From Paulownia fortunei (lineage: Eukaryota > Streptophyta > Magnoliopsida > Lamiales > Paulowniaceae), in the NCBI GenBank assembly GCA_019321725.1, contig CM033115.1, forward strand, positions 6,830,673-6,894,672: a stretch of DNA of 64,000 nt, written 5' to 3'. Below the pieces are notes generated by a model that searched no databases, was not told the DNA's origin, and saw only the letters and a program-made list of their open reading frames with translations. Of the stretch, positions 37,801 through 64,000 are shown piece by piece. Each line of letters starts with the position of its first letter. The first letter of the stretch is position 1. The position numbers and the translations under genes were made by a program.

Positions 37801-40800
37801 ACATCAGTATAGGCTTCAAGTGTCAAACCTGTCCCTTTTTTAAACAATCCCTTTCCCAAGTATTCCTTTTAGATAGGGTAATATTCAATACACCACTTGA
37901 AGATGGATTTCCTTAGGATTGTGCATGAATTGACTGGCTGACAACATATGCAATATCAGGCTTTGTGTGGGACATATAAATTAATCGACCAACTAATCTT
38001 TGATAGCTTTGATCATAGATAACATCTTCAGTGTTTTCTCCAAGGTTTTGATTGGATTCAATTGGCGTGTCCACAGGTTTACAAGCTAACTTCCCAGTTT
38101 CTGTCAATAAGTTAAGAACATACTGTTGGGAAATGATTCCTGGCTTTGACTGAGACACGTTAATGCCTAGGAAGTACTTTAATTTATCAAGTTCTTTAAT
38201 TTCAAACTCTCTTGCCAAACATCTCTTCAAACTATCTATTTCTTTTTCATCATTTCCAGATATAATTATATCATCCACATAAACAAGCAATACAACCACT
38301 CCCTTTGAACTTGAGTGTTTTTGTTGAATAAAGTGTGATCACCTTGACTTTGCTTATATCTATTAGTGTTCATAACTTTTTGTAAATCTCTTGAACTATG
38401 CACGAGGAGATTGTTTTAATCCATACATGGCCTTCTTCAACTTACAAACTCTTTTACCTTCGAGATTCTTATCAAATGCAGAAGGGATTTCCATGTAAAT
38501 TTCCTCTTCAAGATCACCATGGAAAAATCATTATTAACATCAAATTGTTGCAAGTTCTAATAAGATTCACTGCTAAGGATACCAACACTGTTGTATTCAT
38601 TTTGGCTACCAGTGTAAATCTCTCCAAGTAATCCACCCATATGTCTGTATATATCCCTTGACTACAAGCTTCGTCTTATACCTTTCAATTGACCCATTTG
38701 CCTTATACTTCACCTTAAAAACCCATTTACAAACCCACTAGATTTTTCCTCTCGGTAACTCCATATGTTCTATTCTTTTCCAGTGCTTCAGCTCCATGCT
38801 CCATGCTCATAGCTTGTCTCCACCTCTCATTTCTTAATGCCTTGGATAAGGTTTTGGGAATGGTCACAACATTCAGTTAGGTGAGAAAAGTTCGATGAGA
38901 GGATGATGTCTATCATAGGTTAAGAAGGAGCAAGTGGATATAAAGGGCATTTGGTACATTCTTTGTGCCTTTTCTAAGAGCAATAGGAAGGTTAAGATTA
39001 TCATTCTCAATAGTAATAACAACATTATCATGGGAAAAATCAGTTGGAGAAATTACCTCATTACCAGGAGTTTGTTCTAACTTTTGGACTTGCATAGGAT
39101 CATATGCTTTCTTCCTTGAGTATACCTGCATTGGTCTAGTGGAATTATGAATATTGTTGCCAGACTTGGAGATTAGGCTCAAGCTCAAGCTCAGTTGAAG
39201 GGGTTGATTCAATCATAGGTTGGGTTGGGGAAGAACTAGGTTTGAAGGAGAAGGGATGGAAGGCAAATCAAGTGGAAAATGATCCAAGTCTTTATCTTCC
39301 ATGAGTAATGTCTCCCCCTAAGATAAAAACTAGAAAAATAACCCTCATTTTCAACAAAGATAACATCATCATCAACAAAGAGAATATTTTTTAGAGAGTA
39401 GATGATAATACTTGTAACCTTTCTATATGGAAGAATACCCAATGAAAATGCATTTAAGTGCCCGTGGGTCAAAGCTTTCCCCTATCTTGAGCTTGAATGC
39501 AAACAAAGAAACTGCAACCAAAGATTCTAGGGACAAGATTATTTGATTTAGGAAATTGAAGGAAAAAATGAGTCTTGAACCCCAAAACCTGAGAGGGTAA
39601 TTTGTTAATAAGATGGGTGACTGATAGTACGGCCTCCCTCAATATTATTTTGGAACATTCTTATGGAATAAGACGGGATAGGTAACAACAAGTAGGTGAC
39701 TATTGTTGAGGAATACTAGCTCAAGATGATTCACGGATTATTCCTTCGTTTTTGAAAAATAAAGAGAATTTGATTAAAATAATCTTTGGTAATGTCACAT
39801 TTGAATCGTTTTATTTCCACTCCACATGTAGTGTTGATTATCTTATCAAAATTTGGAAAAACATGGCTCACATTAAACTTTTGTTTAAGGAGAAAGATCC
39901 ATTACACTCGAGTCTAATCATCAATGAATGAAACAAAACATCTAGCCCCAGAAATATTAGGAACTATAGAAGGATTCCATATATCACTATGAATAAGAGT
40001 AAAAGGAACTGAAACTCTTTGATTGCTAATACAAAATGAAACACGATGATGTTTTGTAAGTTTAGAGATTTCACAATGAAAAATTTCTACACCCAATCCT
40101 TTGAACAACGTGGGAAACAAGAATTTAAGAGTAGTAAATAAAGGATGACCTATGTGTAGATGGTAAAGTCGGGTTTTGCCTTTATTTGAGAGAGTGCTTT
40201 CTTTGATAGAATTCTAGTCGTCTTCCTCGAACCCTAGTCTTGAAAAATACAATGAGAAGGGTGAAAAACAACACTGCAATTCAAGTCTTCCAAGTCTTTG
40301 GTAAGTCGGTATATGGAAATTAAATTCGTTGAAGGCTCAAGAACATAAAGGACATCAGTAAGGATAAGTGGGGTTTACATGTATTTCTCCTTAACCTGCC
40401 ATCGTGGTCAAAGAACCATCTGCCATATAGATCTTTTTGTTACTTGGACATGGTGTGTAGGAGATAAATTTGTTAGAAGAATTGGTCATGTGACCAATAG
40501 CTCCTGTGTCAGGAACCAAAAGAATTGGAATCCGAGATTTTCAAAGTATGAGAATAAAATACTTACTTGAGATTGCTAAGGAGGAGTAAGCATCAAGAGA
40601 TCCCGATAAATTTTTCAGCCTTCCAATATCTTCTTTCTTCCACTCCACCTGTTGCTGAGTCTCATTCTCATTGTTGGTGGATCACTGACCTTTTCGCTGC
40701 TGTCTACTGTTAAGCTTTGAGTTTTTATTGTTGTTTGCTGGTCCGCCATTCAACTTGTAACATATCTCCCTGATGTGATATTGTTTCTTACGGTAACTGC

Positions 40801-55400: not shown

Positions 55401-55850
55401 GGGAGAAGGAAAAATTAAAAAAAAAAAGCAAAATAACAAATATTTTTGAATTAATTAAATTTAAAAAAAACTTATTTTAATTAGAATTGAATTACATTAA
55501 AAATGTTAATTAAAATTGAAAGTGTAAAAACTAAGTAATAAATTTTTTTAAATTAATTAAATTTAAAAATTGATTTTAATTAAATTGAAAGTTCTTTTTT
55601 TGTATTTATAAATGTGCTACAACTTTAAGATTGCAAATCCAAGTGTAGGTTGTGTTAAGTAATAAATTTCTCGTAAGTTCAAGGTCGATTTACAGGAAAG
55701 TTGTTTGAAGATTTCATTATTATATTTCTAAAAAAAATAGGCTTATGTGGTTTAGAATATATAAAAAATATAATGTATGATATAACTAAAAAAATAACAA
55801 AATAATAAAAATATTAAGAATTAGAGATCCGCTCTTGAGTTTTGGATGAA
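55401..55850. other. AT-rich spacer before the Athila-like element
   Basis: Poly-A/T runs and AATTAAATT motifs; nothing coding is seen. Confidence 0.5.
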
Positions 55851-57419
55851 TGAATGGTTATTTATTCTTTTTTCCTCTTTAAATGCCACAATTGGTATCC
55901 ATGCATAATGATGGTTCTAATGGGAAGATGTTATCAAATAACTCATGCATTAAGATAATCATGGTATTATCTTACTGTTTGTAAATTATCTCTTAATGCC
56001 AATACTTGTTTATGTGGTCAAATATTTATGCACACTTTTGTCTACAACAAATCAAAATTTCACATTAGCAGTCGATGGGGCAGTACAATAAGCTAAATGA
56101 ACCAAAGTATTTGTTGTGCCATTAGAGATACATAAATCAAGAATCACCACAAAACAAGAAAGGTTTTAACACCAATACTTATTTATGGGATCAAGTATTT
56201 ATGCACACCTTTGTCTATAACAAATCAAGGTTTCACATTAGCAGTCGGTGGGGTAGAACCATACAATAAGCTAAATGAACCAAAGTATTTGTTGTATCAT
56301 TGGTGATACATAAATCAAGAATCATCACTAAACAAGGAGGGTTTCAATCAAAAACCAAAACAATAAAACAACACACTTGAACATTATGGAGGGTTTCAAT
56401 CAAAAACCAAAATAATAAAACAATTATGTACCGTTATAACCATTCCTATTCCTTCATCAAGAGCTCCACCCTTTCCCTTCAACTTAAATGAAATTTAGAA
56501 AGATATAATGAAAGTAAAAAAAAACTAAAAATAGAAGAGAAATTAGAGAATACATTTCTATTACAACTAGAAAATTTACATTACTACTAGAAAACTTAGT
56601 CTAAAAAAAGACAATAAGGAAATTTTCTTTTTCCATCTAAGAGTTTGTTGTGTGTTGAATACCATCCAAGAGCTCCTATTTATAATAGAAGAGTGCCTAA
56701 TTGGAATCTCCAAATTCACTCTAAATGCACTCTAAATTAACTTTAAATGTGATCTAAATTCAAATGTCTTTTTCAAATTTGAATTTTTAATCCATTTTTT
56801 TCTATGCAATTAGCTGATTTTAGATTTGCCCTTTAGCTTCATTTTTCAACTTGAATCACCTAATACCAACCACTAGGGAGAAAGTTATGTTTGATTTAAA
56901 AAAATGTGTCAGTATAGATAGATTCTTTCTAACGCTCTCACTTGGATAATTTTTTTTCTATAATCAAGACTAAATTGGGTTTGATCTTCCAACAGAAAAG
57001 TTGTAGTTAACTCTTGGATTTCAAATGAAGTAAGATTAAGGTCCATAGGATTTTTGAGCATGAAGGTATGCCTAAAATATCAAAACTACAGAAGTTTGGA
57101 AACATGCTGATTTTGAGCCCAACAATTACTTGGAAAGTTCAAGTGATTTTTTTCATATATTTTGATCTACATATGATAAACTTAGGTAAAAAGGGCCATT
57201 TTCTTCTAATTGTGATGCTTATTTGATCCAATGAAATATTATCTCTAATTTGTTCACGAAACGTGTTGTCTTCTTCAGTTTTATTTTGGCTCTTTTTGAT
57301 ATCTTTTTATTCATTGATTCCCTAACACAAAATATTAATAAAACTATAATATTAACAAGAATAAAACAAGTAAAGTATAAATGATTTGATACAAAATATA
57401 TCAAAATATGCACTTATCA
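55850..57419 (-). repeat. 3' LTR of the Athila-like element, with an internal tandem duplication
   Basis: Starts (minus strand) TGATAAGTGC directly after the polypurine tract. A block of about 175 bases is repeated at about 55993-56150 and 56170-56335 (shared CACATTAGCAGTCG, AATAAGCTAAATGAACCAAA, GTATTTGTTGT). A shorter repeat, AGGGTTTCAATCAAAAACCA, occurs at 56338 and 56391. The far end is not fixed. Confidence 0.6.
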
Positions 57420-59130
57420 AATTCCCCACACTTAACCATTGCTCGTCCTTGAGCAAGCCTAAAACAAACCTAAACTAATCCACTTTCGTAGGAAATTACA
57501 ATTGTGTTTAGCATATGCAACAAGCCTTTAAACCTCTAGATAGTCCATAGAGGATGAGTTATAGTCTCGTAAGGGTTTTCCGTGGTGATACCCACAAATA
57601 CCTATAGTAACTAACTTTTAACAATTATTATGAGGAAGCAACAAAGTAATATGGAAATGAAATCAAATAAGTGTTGAATTTAACCCTTAGTCATTTAAAA
57701 GTTAATACATTTCCACAATAAGCATACTCCAATGTGTGTGTGAATAGTTAATGTCAATAGTGATGAAATCATACATGCTTCACATAAGTGAATTCCTATA
57801 GAATCTCACAAAAACCATCACCTAATCACTAATGGAAGAGTTAAATATCATAGGCTCTTCATTTAGTACAAATCTCCACTATACTGAAGGCACAACACAA
57901 AATCAAAAGGTTTTCAACAAAGGTTCTAATGGGGCCAACAAAGTCTTTAAAAATTTCATGGGATTAGAGACATAGAGTTTATCATTGAAGAATTTTCATA
58001 CTCCACGAATTTCAACACTGGGGCCTATTGTTATTGAATTAGACTCATCTTCATCATTCTTATTGATTTTACAACATCCCATTTTTAGTTGCAACTTATA
58101 ATATCTTTTACACTTTATATTTTTTTAGAAAAAAAACTTCCCCACACTTATATTCTATTCCAACCCAAATTTCTTTTGCAAGTTCACCTTGTCAATGGAA
58201 TGTCTGTTAAATTCAAAATTATTTTTAGAACAAGGGTAGGAAAATAGTGTATTTAGCCTAGGTAAGAAGATACGATTACAAAAAAAAAATGCTTGTTTAT
58301 TGAAAGGCTCAAAGTGGCTTACTATGGGGGATGTTCTCTTGGAATCACATGGCGAATAAAGCTGATTTGGCCATGGTACTAGAAAGCCTAATGCTTTAAT
58401 TATTTTTCAAGTGATGCTCAATCAGCCATTCGCAAAAGTTCTAACACTCAACCCTTTCATGTCGAAATTCAAGTGATGATTAAAACGAGAGCATAAGAAC
58501 TACCTATTTTGACATATTTGTCTCCACACCGAATAACATAACTATTTATGCAAAATATTTTGATTATAATTATTACAAAAATATATTAACCAAAGAACAA
58601 CATCAAAGTCCAAAACAATACCAATCATCAATCAAACTACATTATCCGTGCTTAATTTTAATCATTGAAGTTGGAAGAATATCTACAATTTAAAAAAAAA
58701 TTGACAATTCAAAAACTTTTATTAAAAACTTCACACACTTGCCATGTTATGTAAAAAATAAAAATAAAAAATAGGGGTGCGTCTCAATAGTGTTACAATT
58801 ACCCTTTATTTTGCCACCTTTTTTTATGGTTTCAATGGACCCAAAAGAAAATACGCTTGAATTTTTTTTTTAAAAAAAACTAGAAAAAACACATTAAACA
58901 CACTATCAATTATCCATTCCCCAAACCTAATGGAGACATTGTCTCTAATATCGAAAATAGATAGGAAAATAGAGTTTAGAAGATATTATTTGAAATGTGA
59001 CTTATTGAAAAATAAAGCTGAAACAACATAATATATACACTATTAGTTGAAACCATTAAAGATAAATTTCACAGGCTGAGAATCAAATTCATTTTATGTT
59101 TTTGACCATTGTCTTTGTTGGACTAATCCA
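57420..59130 (-). other. 3' untranslated part of the Athila-like element
   Basis: Between the LOG-like remnant and the LTR. No convincing coding sequence in either strand. Confidence 0.5.
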
Positions 59131-59692
59131 CATAACCTAATACTGGATCAAGTTTTAGCATATATGCTAGAAATTGATCAATCGGTTGGTCAGGTGTTGG
59201 AATAGAAATGTCACAGATGGTGAAATAAAACTTTTTTTACAGCATGATCTACAAAAGATAGCGAACTATCAAAGAAATCATTAATATTAAGAATACCTAC
59301 AGGTTTCTGGTGAATGTTGAGTTGTGCCCAAGAGAGATAACTTGGAATAATCCCTCCAGTGTACTAAAACCTCCATGTAAAGTGATAAATGGATCAGTAA
59401 TATTTAACATGTTAGACATTCTATCATGAATATGTGACACTTTTAGCTCATATCTAATAGTCATACTTGTGATATTCTATACTATTAAAAATTTTGGGAT
59501 AACTCCTAAAACTTTGACTCCTCCTACATGAGAAGAAGTAGCAACACTCCCTATTAATCCCATACTACCTCTCCCATATACTAAACGAATTTTTCTTTTT
59601 GCTAAGATTCTATCAAGGTTATTGGCTGCCCCTATAAACTCACATTTTTTTCTTGAATCGATTCCGCAAAAGATAAAAATACAGTTGAACTT
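59130..59692 (-). pseudogene. LOG-type gene copy (cytokinin riboside 5'-monophosphate phosphoribohydrolase family), intronless and broken
   Basis: The minus strand carries the LOG fold in order: FNCIFIFCGIDSRKK (family FkrvCVFCGSSsGkk) near 59690, GAANNLDRILAKRKIRLVYG, GRGSMGLIGSVA (family GGGSxGLMG), GGVKVLGVIPK near 59480-59520, VSHIHDRMSNMLNITDPFIT, HGGFSTLEGLFQVI near 59340-59372 (family PGGxGTxEE), SWAQLNIHQKPVGILNI and SLSFVDHAVKK. LOG enzymes release active cytokinin bases from their nucleotides. Here the PGGxGTxxE motif is damaged, there is a stop after VIPKFLIV and at least one frameshift after FQVI. The copy reads across without introns, whereas plant LOG genes have several, so a retrocopy is likely. 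It lies between pol and the 3' LTR of the retroelement, in the same orientation. Confidence 0.75.
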
Positions 59693-59889
59693 GCGAGTGG
59701 AAGACCCTTCTATTTTTTTTCTTTTTTTTTTTGAAAGTGAGTTGTGAAAGAATAGAGTAAGTACAGTGCCATTTATTAGGGTGTGAATAGAGGAAATATT
59801 TATTGCACGTCTTTTTTTGTTGTTAGAAAGGTTGAAAATAAGGACACAAAATTTGAAAATTTGCTACTTACCCATGAATGTACATGTAG

Positions 59890-60440
59890 TTGTGACTATG
59901 ACTCACATCTTCCTTTGGTTTTACGTCCAGTAATAGCTTAAATACCCTATGGGTCGAGGATATGGTTCCCATCCACTTTTCTTATAAACTGGCAAATAAG
60001 GTCTTTTAATATCAGATTTCTAAGACTATAATGCTCATATTCATCCCAAAAATGATTCCATAAATCAAGAATTACATGTTAGACTAATCCACATGAATGC
60101 ATCTTAATAGTCAATATAATGTCATCTAAATACTCCTTACTCAGTCCATCCATAATGAATTGAATTTTATCTTCTCGATTTTGAGAAACCATTCCTATAG
60201 AATGACACTTTGTGTTGCAAGTCCATCTAACACATTTGTGACAAACTTTTATTTTTTCCACTTTTATTTTTTTAAATATGTGCTTTTGCCAAAACCAGGC
60301 ATGTATCTAGTTAGCAAATTTGGAAACTCATGTAAAAATTCACCTGCTCTTACCTTTGCTTCAATTATTCATCGTATGTCCTCTGGGATGCCCTTGTGTA
60401 TAAGCATCCTTAACCTTTTAATTCTGGTTTTATAAATTTT
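59890..60440 (-). pseudogene. Unidentified coding remnant between pol and the LOG-like copy
   Basis: The minus strand shows protein-like sequence over about 0.5 kb in at least two frames: LRMLIHKGIPEDIR-stop-IIEAKV, GEFLHEFPNLLTRYMPGFGK, VCHKCVRWTCNTKCHSIGMV (CxxC and CxxxC spacing, possible zinc site), NREDKIQFIMDGLSKEYLDD, LWNHFWDEYEHYSLRNLIL and GWEPYPRPIGYLSYYW. I do not recognise the family. It could be an accessory or env-position ORF of the element, or a second captured host fragment. Composition and continuity argue against chance. Confidence 0.5.
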
Positions 60441-60959
60441 TAAAATTGTATTTTTAGGAAGAAAAGGAAATCACTTCTTGAGAGTTAGAAGAATGTTATC
60501 CATTTTGATAAGAACAAGAAAAAAATGAGAAAAAAAGAGAAAATTTGTACAAAGATTTTAGTTATTTGGGAAACTGATAAATTCAACTTTAATAGTAACA
60601 CAGTACCATTATCCACCACTTAATCGGGAAAAGAAAAAAAACAAAAGAAAGAAGCCTACAAAATAAACAAAGTTAGAGAAAATATGTATAGATATACACA
60701 TACTAATCATAACGAGGGTTAGAAAGAAAAAAATTTCTTATGAAAATTGATTCTCTAGATACAGTTTAAGTCTTTGTCTATTTATTTTGAATACATTATT
60801 ATTTTTGAGGATTCTCAATATCGATTGCCCCATAGGAATATACATCTTTTACAACAAAAGGACTACTCCACATTGATCTCAAATTTTTAGGAAATAAATG
60901 CAATTGAACCAACCTCAAATGGTTTTCTTGAAATTTTATTATCATGAAATTCTTTGATT

Positions 60960-63333
60960 CTTACTTTATGAATTTTAGAATTCTCATATGCATCATTTCT
61001 CAATTCTTGAAGTTCATTGATTTACAATTTGTGCAATTTTGAAGCTTTATCAAAGTTGAAGTTAAATATTTTGATTGCCCAATAAGCTTTATGTTCAAGT
61101 TCAAGAGGTAAATGACAAGGTTTTCATAAACTATCCTATAAGGAGACATGTCTAATGATATTTTAAAAGAAGTTCTATATGCCCAAAGTGTATCGATAAG
61201 TCTAAGAGACCAATCTTTATGATCTGGGTTAACTGTTTTTTCCAAAATTTATTTTATGCCCCTATTTGCAAGTTCAGCTTGTCCATTTGTCTGAAGGTGA
61301 TAAGAGATTGCAACTTTATATATGATTCCATATTTCGTCATTAAAGTTCCAAAAATATTTTCCCCCATCACTGATAATTGATTGATGAATTCCAAATCAA
61401 CTTAAAATATTTTCTTTCAAAAATTTTATCACTATTTTGTGATCATTATTTTGATAGGAAATTGCTTTGATCTATTTTGAGACATAATCTATGTCAACAA
61501 ATATGTAAATAAAATTAAATGATAATGAAAATGGTCCAATAAAGTCAATACCCCGATAATCAAAGATTTCAATCATTAGGAAGGGGTGTAGGGGATCATG
61601 TTTCTCTTTGAAATTGATCCTAATGTTTAACAATTTTCACAACTTTTGCACAACCTGTATGTGTCTTTGAAAACAGTTGTCCAATAAAATTCACATTACA
61701 AGATCTTTGCAACATTTTTTTTTTGCTGAAAAGTGACCGCTACATGATTCTAAATAATTAAATTTAAGAATATTACCTTTCTCATTGTCAGGTACACATC
61801 TCCAAAAGATTTGATCAGGATAATATTTGAATAGGTATGTGTCATCCTAATAAAAGTTTTTCACCTCAGTCAAAAACTTCTTTTTATCTTGGAAATTTTA
61901 ATGCATTGACATCTTTTCTGTCACAAGAAAATTAACAATGTCCACAAATCAAGGTAAAATAGAAACATTAAATAGTTGTTCATCAGGGAAAGTATCATTA
62001 ATGAGTGTGGTTTGAAATGAGTCATCACAAACGAGTCCCGATAAATGATTAACCACCACATTCTCTATTACTTTTTTATCTTGAATCGTAATGTTGAATT
62101 CTTGGAGTAAGAGAATCCACCTAATCAGTTTAGGTTTGACATTTTTTTTGACAAAAATTATTTCAAGGCTGCATGATTACTGAAAAGAACAATTGGTGAG
62201 CCAATAAGATAAGATTTAAATTTATCCAATGCAAAAACTACAACAAGTAATTCTTTTTCAGTTGTTGAATAATTCAATTGAGCACTATTCAAAGTTTTAC
62301 TTGCATAGTAAATGACATATGGTTTCTTATATTTTCTTTGTCCTAAGACAGCCACGACAGTATAGTCACTAGCATTACATATTATTTCAAAAGATAAAGT
62401 CCAATTTGGAGGCTGCATGATTGGAGTAGAGATAAGCATGCTTTTAAACTTAAAAAAATCATTTTCATAATTTTTAGTCATTCAAAAATAGTGTCTTTTG
62501 TTAGCAGGTTTATATATTATACTAAATTTTTTGATAAATCATCAGTAAAAACTAGTATATCCTAAAATGATCTTACCTCCTTCATAGACTTTGATATTGA
62601 AAAATTGGCAATTAACTCGACTTTAGATTTGTCTACTTCATTACCTTTTGATGAAATAATGTGTCTAAGAACAATACCAGTTATTACCATGAAATGACAT
62701 TTCTCCCAATTGAGTATAAGGCTCTTTTCTTCACACTTGATCAAAGCCTTTTTTAAATTAGACAAGCAATTATCAAATGAATTACCAAAAACAGAAAAAT
62801 CATCCATGATGACTTCAAGAAAATGTTCTATCATATTACTAAAAATACTAAGCATGCATCATTGGAATGCAGCTGATGTATTGCATAATCCAAAAGGCAT
62901 AATTCGATATGTAAAAATACCAAAAAGAGATACAAAAGTAGTTTTTTTCTTGATCTTCGAATGCAATTGCATTTTGATTATACCCAAAATATCCATCTAA
63001 AAAGTAGTAAAATTCATGTCCCGCAACTCTTTCTAAGATTTGATCTACGAAAGATAATGGAATGATCTTTTCTAGTAAGTGAATTGAGTTTCCTATAGTC
63101 AACGCACATTGCCAACCAGTAATAGTTCTAGTTGAAATTAATTCATCATTCTCATTCTTGACTATAGTAACTCTAGATTTCTTTGGTACAACTTGAGTAG
63201 GACTTACCCATTTACTGTCAAAAATAGGATAGATGATTCCATTATCTAAGAGTTTAATGACTTCATTTCTCACTACTTCTTTTATATCTAAGAGTTTACT
63301 GCCTTCGTTGCATTTCTCTAGAAGGTTTAGCAT
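60960..63333 (-). pseudogene. Ty3-type pol: reverse transcriptase, RNase H, integrase (decayed)
   Basis: In reading order on the minus strand: RT from 63333 (VVRNEVIKLLDNGIIYPI, WVSPTQVVPKKS, FLDGYFGYNQ), RT palm at 62562-62855 with VIMDDFSVFGNSFDNCL (catalytic Asp-Asp codons near 62799-62804) and NWEKCHFMV; RNase H at 62158-62481 (PNWTLSFEIICNASDYTV, YYASKTLNSAQLNYSTTEKE); integrase from about 61860 with zinc-finger remnants (CVPDNEKGNILKF, GHFSAKK), GIDFIGPF and IISDGG catalytic Asp regions; and the C-terminal DWSLRLIDTLWAYRTSFKIS, MSPYRIVYENL at 61000-61245. Several frameshifts and stops interrupt it. Confidence 0.88.
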
Positions 63334-63699
63334 TTTTCTTTGGATAGATGTTATGTGGTCAAATTAAAGGACTAATATCTTTAATGTCAGTAATGATCAA
63401 TTCTAAAGCATTCTTATGCATTTTCAAAATTTTGATAAACTTATCTTCTTAGGATGCATCAAGTTTGAAAGAAATTATTACTGGAAAAGTTTGTTTCTCA
63501 CTCAAATAAGAGTATTTCAAATCAAATGAAAAAGTTTCAAATAAATCACAAGAGCTTTAATAGTTGATGGAACAAATTGTACAGTTGATGATGAAATTTC
63601 TTCAAACCTTGGCTTTCAAAAATATTTTTCTTATACCTGCAAAAATTCAGAGAGAGTATTAGAGTGTATTTTTATAAATATTTTTACTTTCAAAACAAG

Positions 63700-64000
63700 T
63701 TTCCAGATGGTCAAATGAATTAGTGAAAGTAAAATATATATGAACAAGTTCCTCATTTGAATCCAGTTCATGTACTTCGACATCTTCTATAGGTTGTTTA
63801 CAAACATTAAACACATTTAGTTCTAAATTCATATTTTCAAAGATAATATTAAAATACCATTCCTATAATTAATCAGAGCATTTGAAGTTGCAAGAAAAGA
63901 ACAACCCAAAATGATAAGAATTTGTCTATGTGTATGTGCAATAGACTATGTATCCAAAATAATGAAATCTATTCAAAAGTATAATTTATCAATTTGTACC
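63700..64000 (-). pseudogene. Retroelement protease region (partial)
   Basis: The minus strand reads ILGCSFLATSNALINYRNG and then NMNLELNVFNVCKQP, the C-terminal part of the aspartic protease segment in Athila-like polyproteins (family PIILGRPFLATSNALI). The catalytic Asp region would lie past the window edge. Confidence 0.7.

Follow-up and report, generated by a model that had tools for sequence, protein, structure and literature searches.

A stretch of 64,000 nucleotides of the Paulownia fortunei genome (the window, G000:C11:6830673-6894672 of a 509-Mb assembly) holds a sequence related to LOG, a family of cytokinin-activating enzymes, within a Ty3-type retrotransposon. We asked whether this sequence is carried by the element or arrived there independently of it, and how a plant hormone gene could have entered such an element. 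The window LOG is very probably the dead cargo gene of an old Athila-like Ty3/gypsy insertion in Paulownia fortunei, carried with the element.

Identity and decay of the LOG remnant

A first-pass annotation made from the sequence had proposed a LOG-family sequence at 59130..59692, and the translation was searched against plant LOG proteins. The open piece at 59863-59477 matched Arabidopsis LOG3 (2a33; phmmer, E 9.2e-13) and, as second Arabidopsis match, LOG8 (1ydh; phmmer, E 4.2e-12), and a tblastn search using the open sibling LOG protein P0003 as a query covered 59713-59090 of the window (E 5e-65). The proposal was thus borne out with a slightly wider extent, 59713-59069, the frame ending at a stop at 59071-59069. 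P0003 itself matched PF03641 (E 1.3e-37). Because Pfam profiles gave no LOG match on the open piece 59863-59477 by itself, the LOG assignment of the window copy rests on phmmer and tblastn. The best Pfam match of that piece, TMEM70 (E 0.0077), was discarded as not credible.

The copy had been described as a gene; it is a LOG by homology and is not intact. An in-frame TAG stands directly behind VLGVIPKFLIV, the remainder of the protein past the open piece is spread over two frames, with one frame change at about 59300-59360 and a second near 59236-59214, and the LOG catalytic motif PGGxGTxxE (described in the available text of PMC11593424) reads HGGFSTLEG. Judged by its frame, the window copy is a pseudogene, a dead member of its family.

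The element that carries it

As had been noted, the LOG remnant runs in the sense of the element, between pol (63999-60706) and the 3' LTR (57419-55615), all on the minus strand. The parts of the element are as follows, in element order, with the partner 5' LTR given last:

62709..63999, minus strand: protease and reverse transcriptase remnant, continuing beyond the window (tblastn; RVT_1 in the sibling locus L014)
61700..62705, minus strand: end of the reverse transcriptase and RNase H remnant (PF17919, E 3.1e-25; tblastn)
60706..61695, minus strand: integrase remnant (tblastn with the L014 integrase ORF; rve in L014)
59950..60503, minus strand: remnant of an NABP / Carla_C4-like ORF (182-185 aa) in the interval between pol and LOG (tblastn with the open ORF of the sibling locus L012, 73-83% identity, E 2e-74; Pfam of relatives)
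59069..59713, minus strand: LOG pseudogene, the remnant of the cargo ORF, intronless, with a stop and frameshifts and the tail MNLILSL
57420..57433, minus strand: purine-rich tract AAGTGTGGGGAATT adjoining the 3' LTR (read from sequence)
55615..57419, minus strand: 3' LTR, 1805 bp, TGATAAGTG...GTTGTAGCA
55993..56347, minus strand: tandem duplication within the 3' LTR, spacing 173-178 bp
55610..55614, minus strand: target duplication CATTT, with CGTTT at the other side of the element
G000:C11:6898385-6896774, outside the window: partner 5' LTR, 1612 bp

We infer that the purine-rich tract is the polypurine tract of the element. A search within window positions 50-64 kb found no LTR pair, the 5' LTR being located beyond the window; measured from LTR to LTR, the whole element is about 12.1 kb long. 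It is flanked by CGTTT/CATTT, a target duplication with 4 of 5 bp identical, whose single mismatch is a change of the kind made by CpG decay. The two LTRs differ by a K2P distance of 0.159 (153 transitions and 68 transversions over 1564 sites), which at a substitution rate of 1.3e-8 per site and year places the insertion roughly 6 million years ago; the window copy of LOG would have landed at that time and decayed since.

Sibling copies in the Paulownia genome

A search of the Paulownia genome with the LOG piece gave 4060 first-look candidates, the best 150 of which were scored, all with E <= 7e-36, yielding a predicted LOG copy number of at least 150. From the top of this match list we retrieved 20 stretches of 9.9 kb around LOG copies, including L012 and the window's own; as these loci were chosen via LOG, LOG-free elements fall outside the count. 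In the 19 other loci, homology to L012 continued without a break across LOG, taking in at least 0.5 kb on its upstream side and about 0.2 kb on its downstream side, and collinearity extended as far as the 3' LTR, which starts about 2.4 kb beyond, with a small gap behind LOG in L024, L025 and L026. LOG was still open in 14 of the 19. The C-terminus of the integrase was located 1.2-1.6 kb ahead of LOG in 17 of the 20 stretches, the remaining three (L013, L024 and L026) having no integrase C-terminus and homology that starts about 0.9-1.1 kb before LOG.

Two of these loci complete the description of the element. L014 has gag, protease, reverse transcriptase, RNase H and integrase in this order in separate open frames, with about 100 residues between RT_RNaseH and Integrase_H2C2, an interval in which no match to a second RNase H was found. 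An additional RNase H between RH and integrase marks the angiosperm Tat lineage and is absent from Athila, according to the available text of PMC6317226. The element fits Athila and not angiosperm Tat, as judged from its domains, although a single RNase H alone does not prove Athila. Its gag and PR-RT-RH-INT order (L014), together with LTR pairs and target duplications (L012 and the window element), are those of Ty3/gypsy elements. L012 (G000:C12) has lost gag and most of pol and retains both LTRs, which differ at 19 of 1612 sites, as well as an open LOG whose motif reads PGGFGTLEE; GAGGT on either side forms a perfect 5-bp target duplication. Going by these parts, L012 is a young, non-autonomous LOG carrier, in which even a deleted element bears an open LOG. 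Behind the 5' LTR of a further copy, L011, we read AGTTTTTGGCGCCGTTGCCG, a primer-binding-site-like sequence.

The first-pass annotation had held a chance landing of an independent retrogene to be the alternative. A processed LOG copy made by a LINE and inserted in this one element would account for the intronless LOG and for the A-rich run near it, but this run is located on the 5' side of the window LOG and is therefore not a retrogene tail. No target duplication of its own was seen around the window LOG, whereas the duplications of L012 and of the window element enclose whole elements, and LOG occupies the same junction in 19 other loci, with homology that extends past both of its ends. For these reasons we reject an independent retrogene, to which we give next to no chance. 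LOG belongs to the unit that transposes and is copied along with it. The layout of the family, as assembled from these loci, is gag, protease, reverse transcriptase, RNase H, integrase, NABP-like ORF and LOG, all in sense, and LOG has been copied within the element RNA at every transposition since its capture.

Introns and mode of capture

We searched for host LOG exons using pieces of 81 aa and 44 aa from LOG3; element copies dominated the best-150 lists, and two host exons were found in the second. Two host LOG genes were then read in the Paulownia genome, L090 and, in part, L091. L090 has seven exons and six introns (traced by eye and with tblastn, from genomic DNA alone), with exon breaks behind LGQEL, VLG, GKE, ALPG, DKP and KLE, and L091 shares the ALPG/GYGT and KP/VGLL breaks. 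In peanut, LOG genes mostly have 7 exons and 6 introns (available text of PMC13257298). The cargo ORF of L012 runs unbroken across all six host intron sites, and the window LOG has no intron at any of the six, which confirms that it is intronless.

Compared with the host gene structure, the missing introns show that LOG went through an RNA stage, and they do not tell a spliced from an unspliced first captured piece. The capture of a spliced host mRNA, as first proposed, is plausible for a cargo without introns, but another route would give the same outcome: LOG may have been taken up as genomic DNA, by recombination or by a template switch with an unspliced transcript, and its introns later spliced from the element RNA. 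Since copying includes an RNA stage, the present copies cannot tell how the first one lost its introns. Nothing decisive speaks against uptake as genomic DNA, although capture of a spliced mRNA takes fewer steps; we consider the genomic route somewhat unlikely.

Relatives and descent of the cargo LOG

Using a read-through of the window LOG remnant as a query, we retrieved 35 proteins with E <= 0.001 among 59 candidates; the twelve best are LOGs of 217 aa with 68-72% identity, four of them from Paulownia fortunei. With P0003 as a query, 455 proteins had E <= 1e-60 among 5373 candidates, and the best 120 were listed, with Paulownia, Rehmannia, Orobanche, Reevesia, Diplodiscus, Populus and Xanthoceras among their hosts. 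Orobanche LOGs formed clusters of 244 and 328 members, and cargo-type LOGs of Reevesia came from many separate loci. Among the matches listed, PGGxGTxxE is kept in 98 of the 116 full-length relatives and missing in 18. No LOG was found in viral contigs. Three LOG proteins of Xanthoceras (P0036, P0037 and P0074) measure 290-359 aa and contain parts of LOG more than once.

We built two trees from rows hand-picked from those listed, one of 56 rows and one of 33 rows to which the two Paulownia host LOGs were added, the latter including only four plant host LOGs. In the 33-row tree, cargo-type LOGs of several eudicots formed one clade of 26 rows (99/96) as against bacterial, algal and host LOGs, and the Arabidopsis and Paulownia host LOGs formed a separate clade (100/98). 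The Paulownia, Rehmannia and Orobanche rows, all Lamiales, grouped together inside the cargo clade (100/98), and the window copy adjoined P0003. The 56-row tree likewise contained one clade of cargo-type LOGs. These groupings suggest, as the simplest reading, one old capture of LOG followed by mostly vertical inheritance, with host-to-host transfer possible too. Together with the shared junctions, the tree points to a probable single capture of a plant LOG that predates the divergence of the Lamiales cargo lineages. Portions of P0036 and P0074 were sister to the remaining cargo-type LOGs.

It could be objected that the multi-copy LOGs of the 217-aa type in other plants are an ordinary host LOG subfamily, located in an element in Paulownia only. 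The cargo-type LOGs of other species are known here from protein sequences, and one Populus member of the cargo clade, P0093, bears the host-gene name LOGL10 at NCBI. Against this stand the Orobanche clusters of 244 and 328 members and the many separate Reevesia loci, the placement of every row tested within one clade apart from host LOGs, and the Citrus and Populus Ty3 consensus sequences that contain the domain (available text of PMC9289625). We regard a host subfamily as very improbable and retain a probable cargo lineage shared by several eudicots. As cargo-clade LOGs are named LOGL10 (P0093) or plainly hypothetical, gene counts of plant LOGs could be inflated.

Cargo-type LOGs often end in KLxLxLSL (tails of P0001-P0141; window 59122-59072). 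LxLxL was present within the last 16 residues of 88 of the 116 full-length relatives among the matches listed, and in none of the 16 Orobanche rows. We take the LxLxL tail of the cargo LOG to be EAR-like. The tail of the host LOG L090, the only complete host tail compared, has no LxLxL, and an EAR-like tail specific to the cargo is for now a lead.

A neighbouring ORF that resembles viral nucleic-acid-binding proteins

Between pol and LOG, the element family has an ORF of 182-185 aa, which is open in L012. This open ORF scored 25.4 bits against PF01623 (Carla_C4; cutoff 20.9) and 18.8 bits against PF05515 (Viral_NABP), under the cutoff of 23 for that profile. Over 25 aligned members, at E up to 1, PF05515 was detected in 25 of 25 (best 2.9e-8) and PF01623 in 24 of 25 (best 1.2e-6), a match of the ORF to the Pfam families of carlavirus-type nucleic-acid-binding, or cysteine-rich, proteins (PF01623 / PF05515). 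A search with this ORF yielded 435 relatives with E <= 0.01 among 482 candidates. All of the best 120, which were listed, carry PF01623 in the precomputed annotation; 119 of them are 56-72% identical to the query and one is 95% identical, and their hosts include Xanthoceras, Populus, Rhamnella, Acer and Orobanche. One relative, P0258 from Rhamnella rubrinervis, starts with C-terminal integrase sequence, which over 111 residues shares 74% identity with the integrase of L014, and continues into the NABP-like ORF, and therefore has the same order in another plant family.

No relatives of the ORF were found in viral contigs, and the PDB gave no convincing match (best E 0.3). Its structure model (mean pLDDT 64, pTM 0.30) did not reach the quality that a fold search needs. 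Among plant viruses, cysteine-rich proteins can act as suppressors of RNA silencing, one example being given in the available text of PMC555535. A search of mainly open-access literature found no report of the PF05515/PF01623 viral domain in Gypsy retrotransposons.

Selection on the cargo LOG

From the upper part of the LOG match list (best 150 of 4060) we read 79 copies and grouped them by LOG identity to L012 into 42 young (at least 94%), 9 in between and 28 old (below 87%). The LOG frame has neither stop nor gap in 21 of the 79 copies, ignoring insertions relative to L012, or in 26 by a coarser criterion, and has a stop or gap in 58. Nearly fixed differences between the 42 young and the 28 old copies comprised 12 amino-acid changing and 13 silent changes, as against 107 amino-acid changing (3 of them stops) and 33 silent changes among singletons of the young group (Fisher p 0.0066; binomial p 0.013 against a mutational expectation of 2.44:1). 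Variants shared by at least 3 copies numbered 96, 82 and 67 at codon positions 1, 2 and 3 in the old group and 118, 102 and 96 in all 79 copies, with no third-position excess in either, and 14, 10 and 18 in the young group, with a slight one.

We repeated the comparison on long loci (13 young and 5 old, leaving out L022 and L027). Amino-acid changing to silent changes in LOG were 18:14 versus 65:17 for singletons (Fisher p 0.019; binomial p 0.055 against the mutational expectation alone), those in the integrase 1:5 over 409 columns and those in RT-RH 4:8 over 506 columns (11 young, 3 old). The NABP-like ORF had N11:S7 between young and old (Fisher p 0.41), which gives no clear constraint. Rough omega values were 0.4-0.5 for LOG, 0.07 for the integrase and 0.19 for RT-RH. 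LOG has thus probably been under some constraint, weaker than that on pol, the evidence being modest.

LOG may also be neutral baggage, copied for its position between pol and the LTR with no selection for it. The constraint on LOG that is weaker than on pol, the stop or gap in 58 of 79 frames, the lack of a third-position excess among shared variants in the old group and overall, and the 18 of 116 full-length relatives without PGGxGTxxE all agree with this. On the trunk separating old from young copies, amino-acid changes nevertheless make up a smaller share than among singletons (p 0.0066), and full-length frames and 98 of 116 catalytic motifs are found across rosid and asterid hosts, in predicted proteins, which favour survivors. 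We hold neutral baggage to be unlikely and retain a LOG that has probably been under some constraint.

What such constraint would serve can be put forward tentatively. The LOG of live copies may release active cytokinin in cells that transcribe the element, which would favour dividing cells, for instance in meristems, and so new insertions that are inherited; we see this as a possibility, well short of a probable role. A broader proposal, which we find doubtful, is that a lineage of Athila-like elements has carried, since before the rosid-asterid split, a 3' module made of a viral-type nucleic-acid-binding protein and a cytokinin-activating LOG with an LxLxL tail that could recruit host corepressors; the module would be kept for shifting the host cell to meristem states, from which new copies are passed on, by means of the hormone and perhaps with blunted silencing.

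Relation to known elements

The first-pass annotation considered a mobile LOG cargo unusual, which is partly wrong. A LOG/YgdH domain has been published in Ty3 consensus sequences of Citrus sinensis and C. clementina and, with a filter off, of Populus trichocarpa (Alvarado-Marchena et al. 2022, available text of PMC9289625), and this paper calls its finding in line with Steinbauerova et al. 2011. LOG cargo in Ty3 elements is a known kind, and the Paulownia element is a further case. Steinbauerova et al. 2011 reportedly described two Athila-like elements with similarity to a LOGL4 gene. The Citrus and Populus elements resemble the present one in having an extra LOG domain in a Ty3 element; compared with what the available text of PMC9289625 gives for them, the Paulownia case lies in Lamiales and adds high copy number, open copies, a dated insertion, a comparison with host genes and a conserved neighbour ORF with an NABP domain.

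The same source describes Ty3 elements of Phalaenopsis with an ORF for an AlkB-type m6A demethylase, likewise an enzyme of host type that a Ty3 lineage has fixed as an extra ORF; according to its available text these are Tat/Ogre relatives from orchids, with an RNA demethylase active in vitro. In plant LTR elements, the interval from pol to the 3' LTR can hold env-like and other ORFs (available texts of PMC7264820 and PMC6317226), which have the same position and sense, but mostly have no conserved domains common to a lineage, in contrast to the enzyme of known family in Paulownia. Bs1 of maize, a case of gene transduction, also has host sequence on an LTR element (available text of PMC7264820).

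A retroelement here spreads the gene of a hormone-activating enzyme at high copy number, and a single old capture seems to persist across eudicots. Nature here provides a test case for the question why a selfish element should hold on to a hormone gene. Bs1 is said to be low in copy number and to carry gene fragments, unlike the Paulownia cargo, which is a whole ORF at high copy number. Worthy of note in the Paulownia cargo are its likely great age, its high copy number and its virus-like neighbour gene, the less familiar features being this neighbour ORF and the LxLxL tail. In a search of mainly open-access literature we recognised no published account of a viral domain in the neighbour ORF, of this range of hosts or of selection acting on the cargo.

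Three further pieces in the window, all on the minus strand and recognised by eye only, resemble a Ty1/copia reverse transcriptase (37913-38338), a MULE transposase (1709-2353) and a plant mobile domain (85-849).
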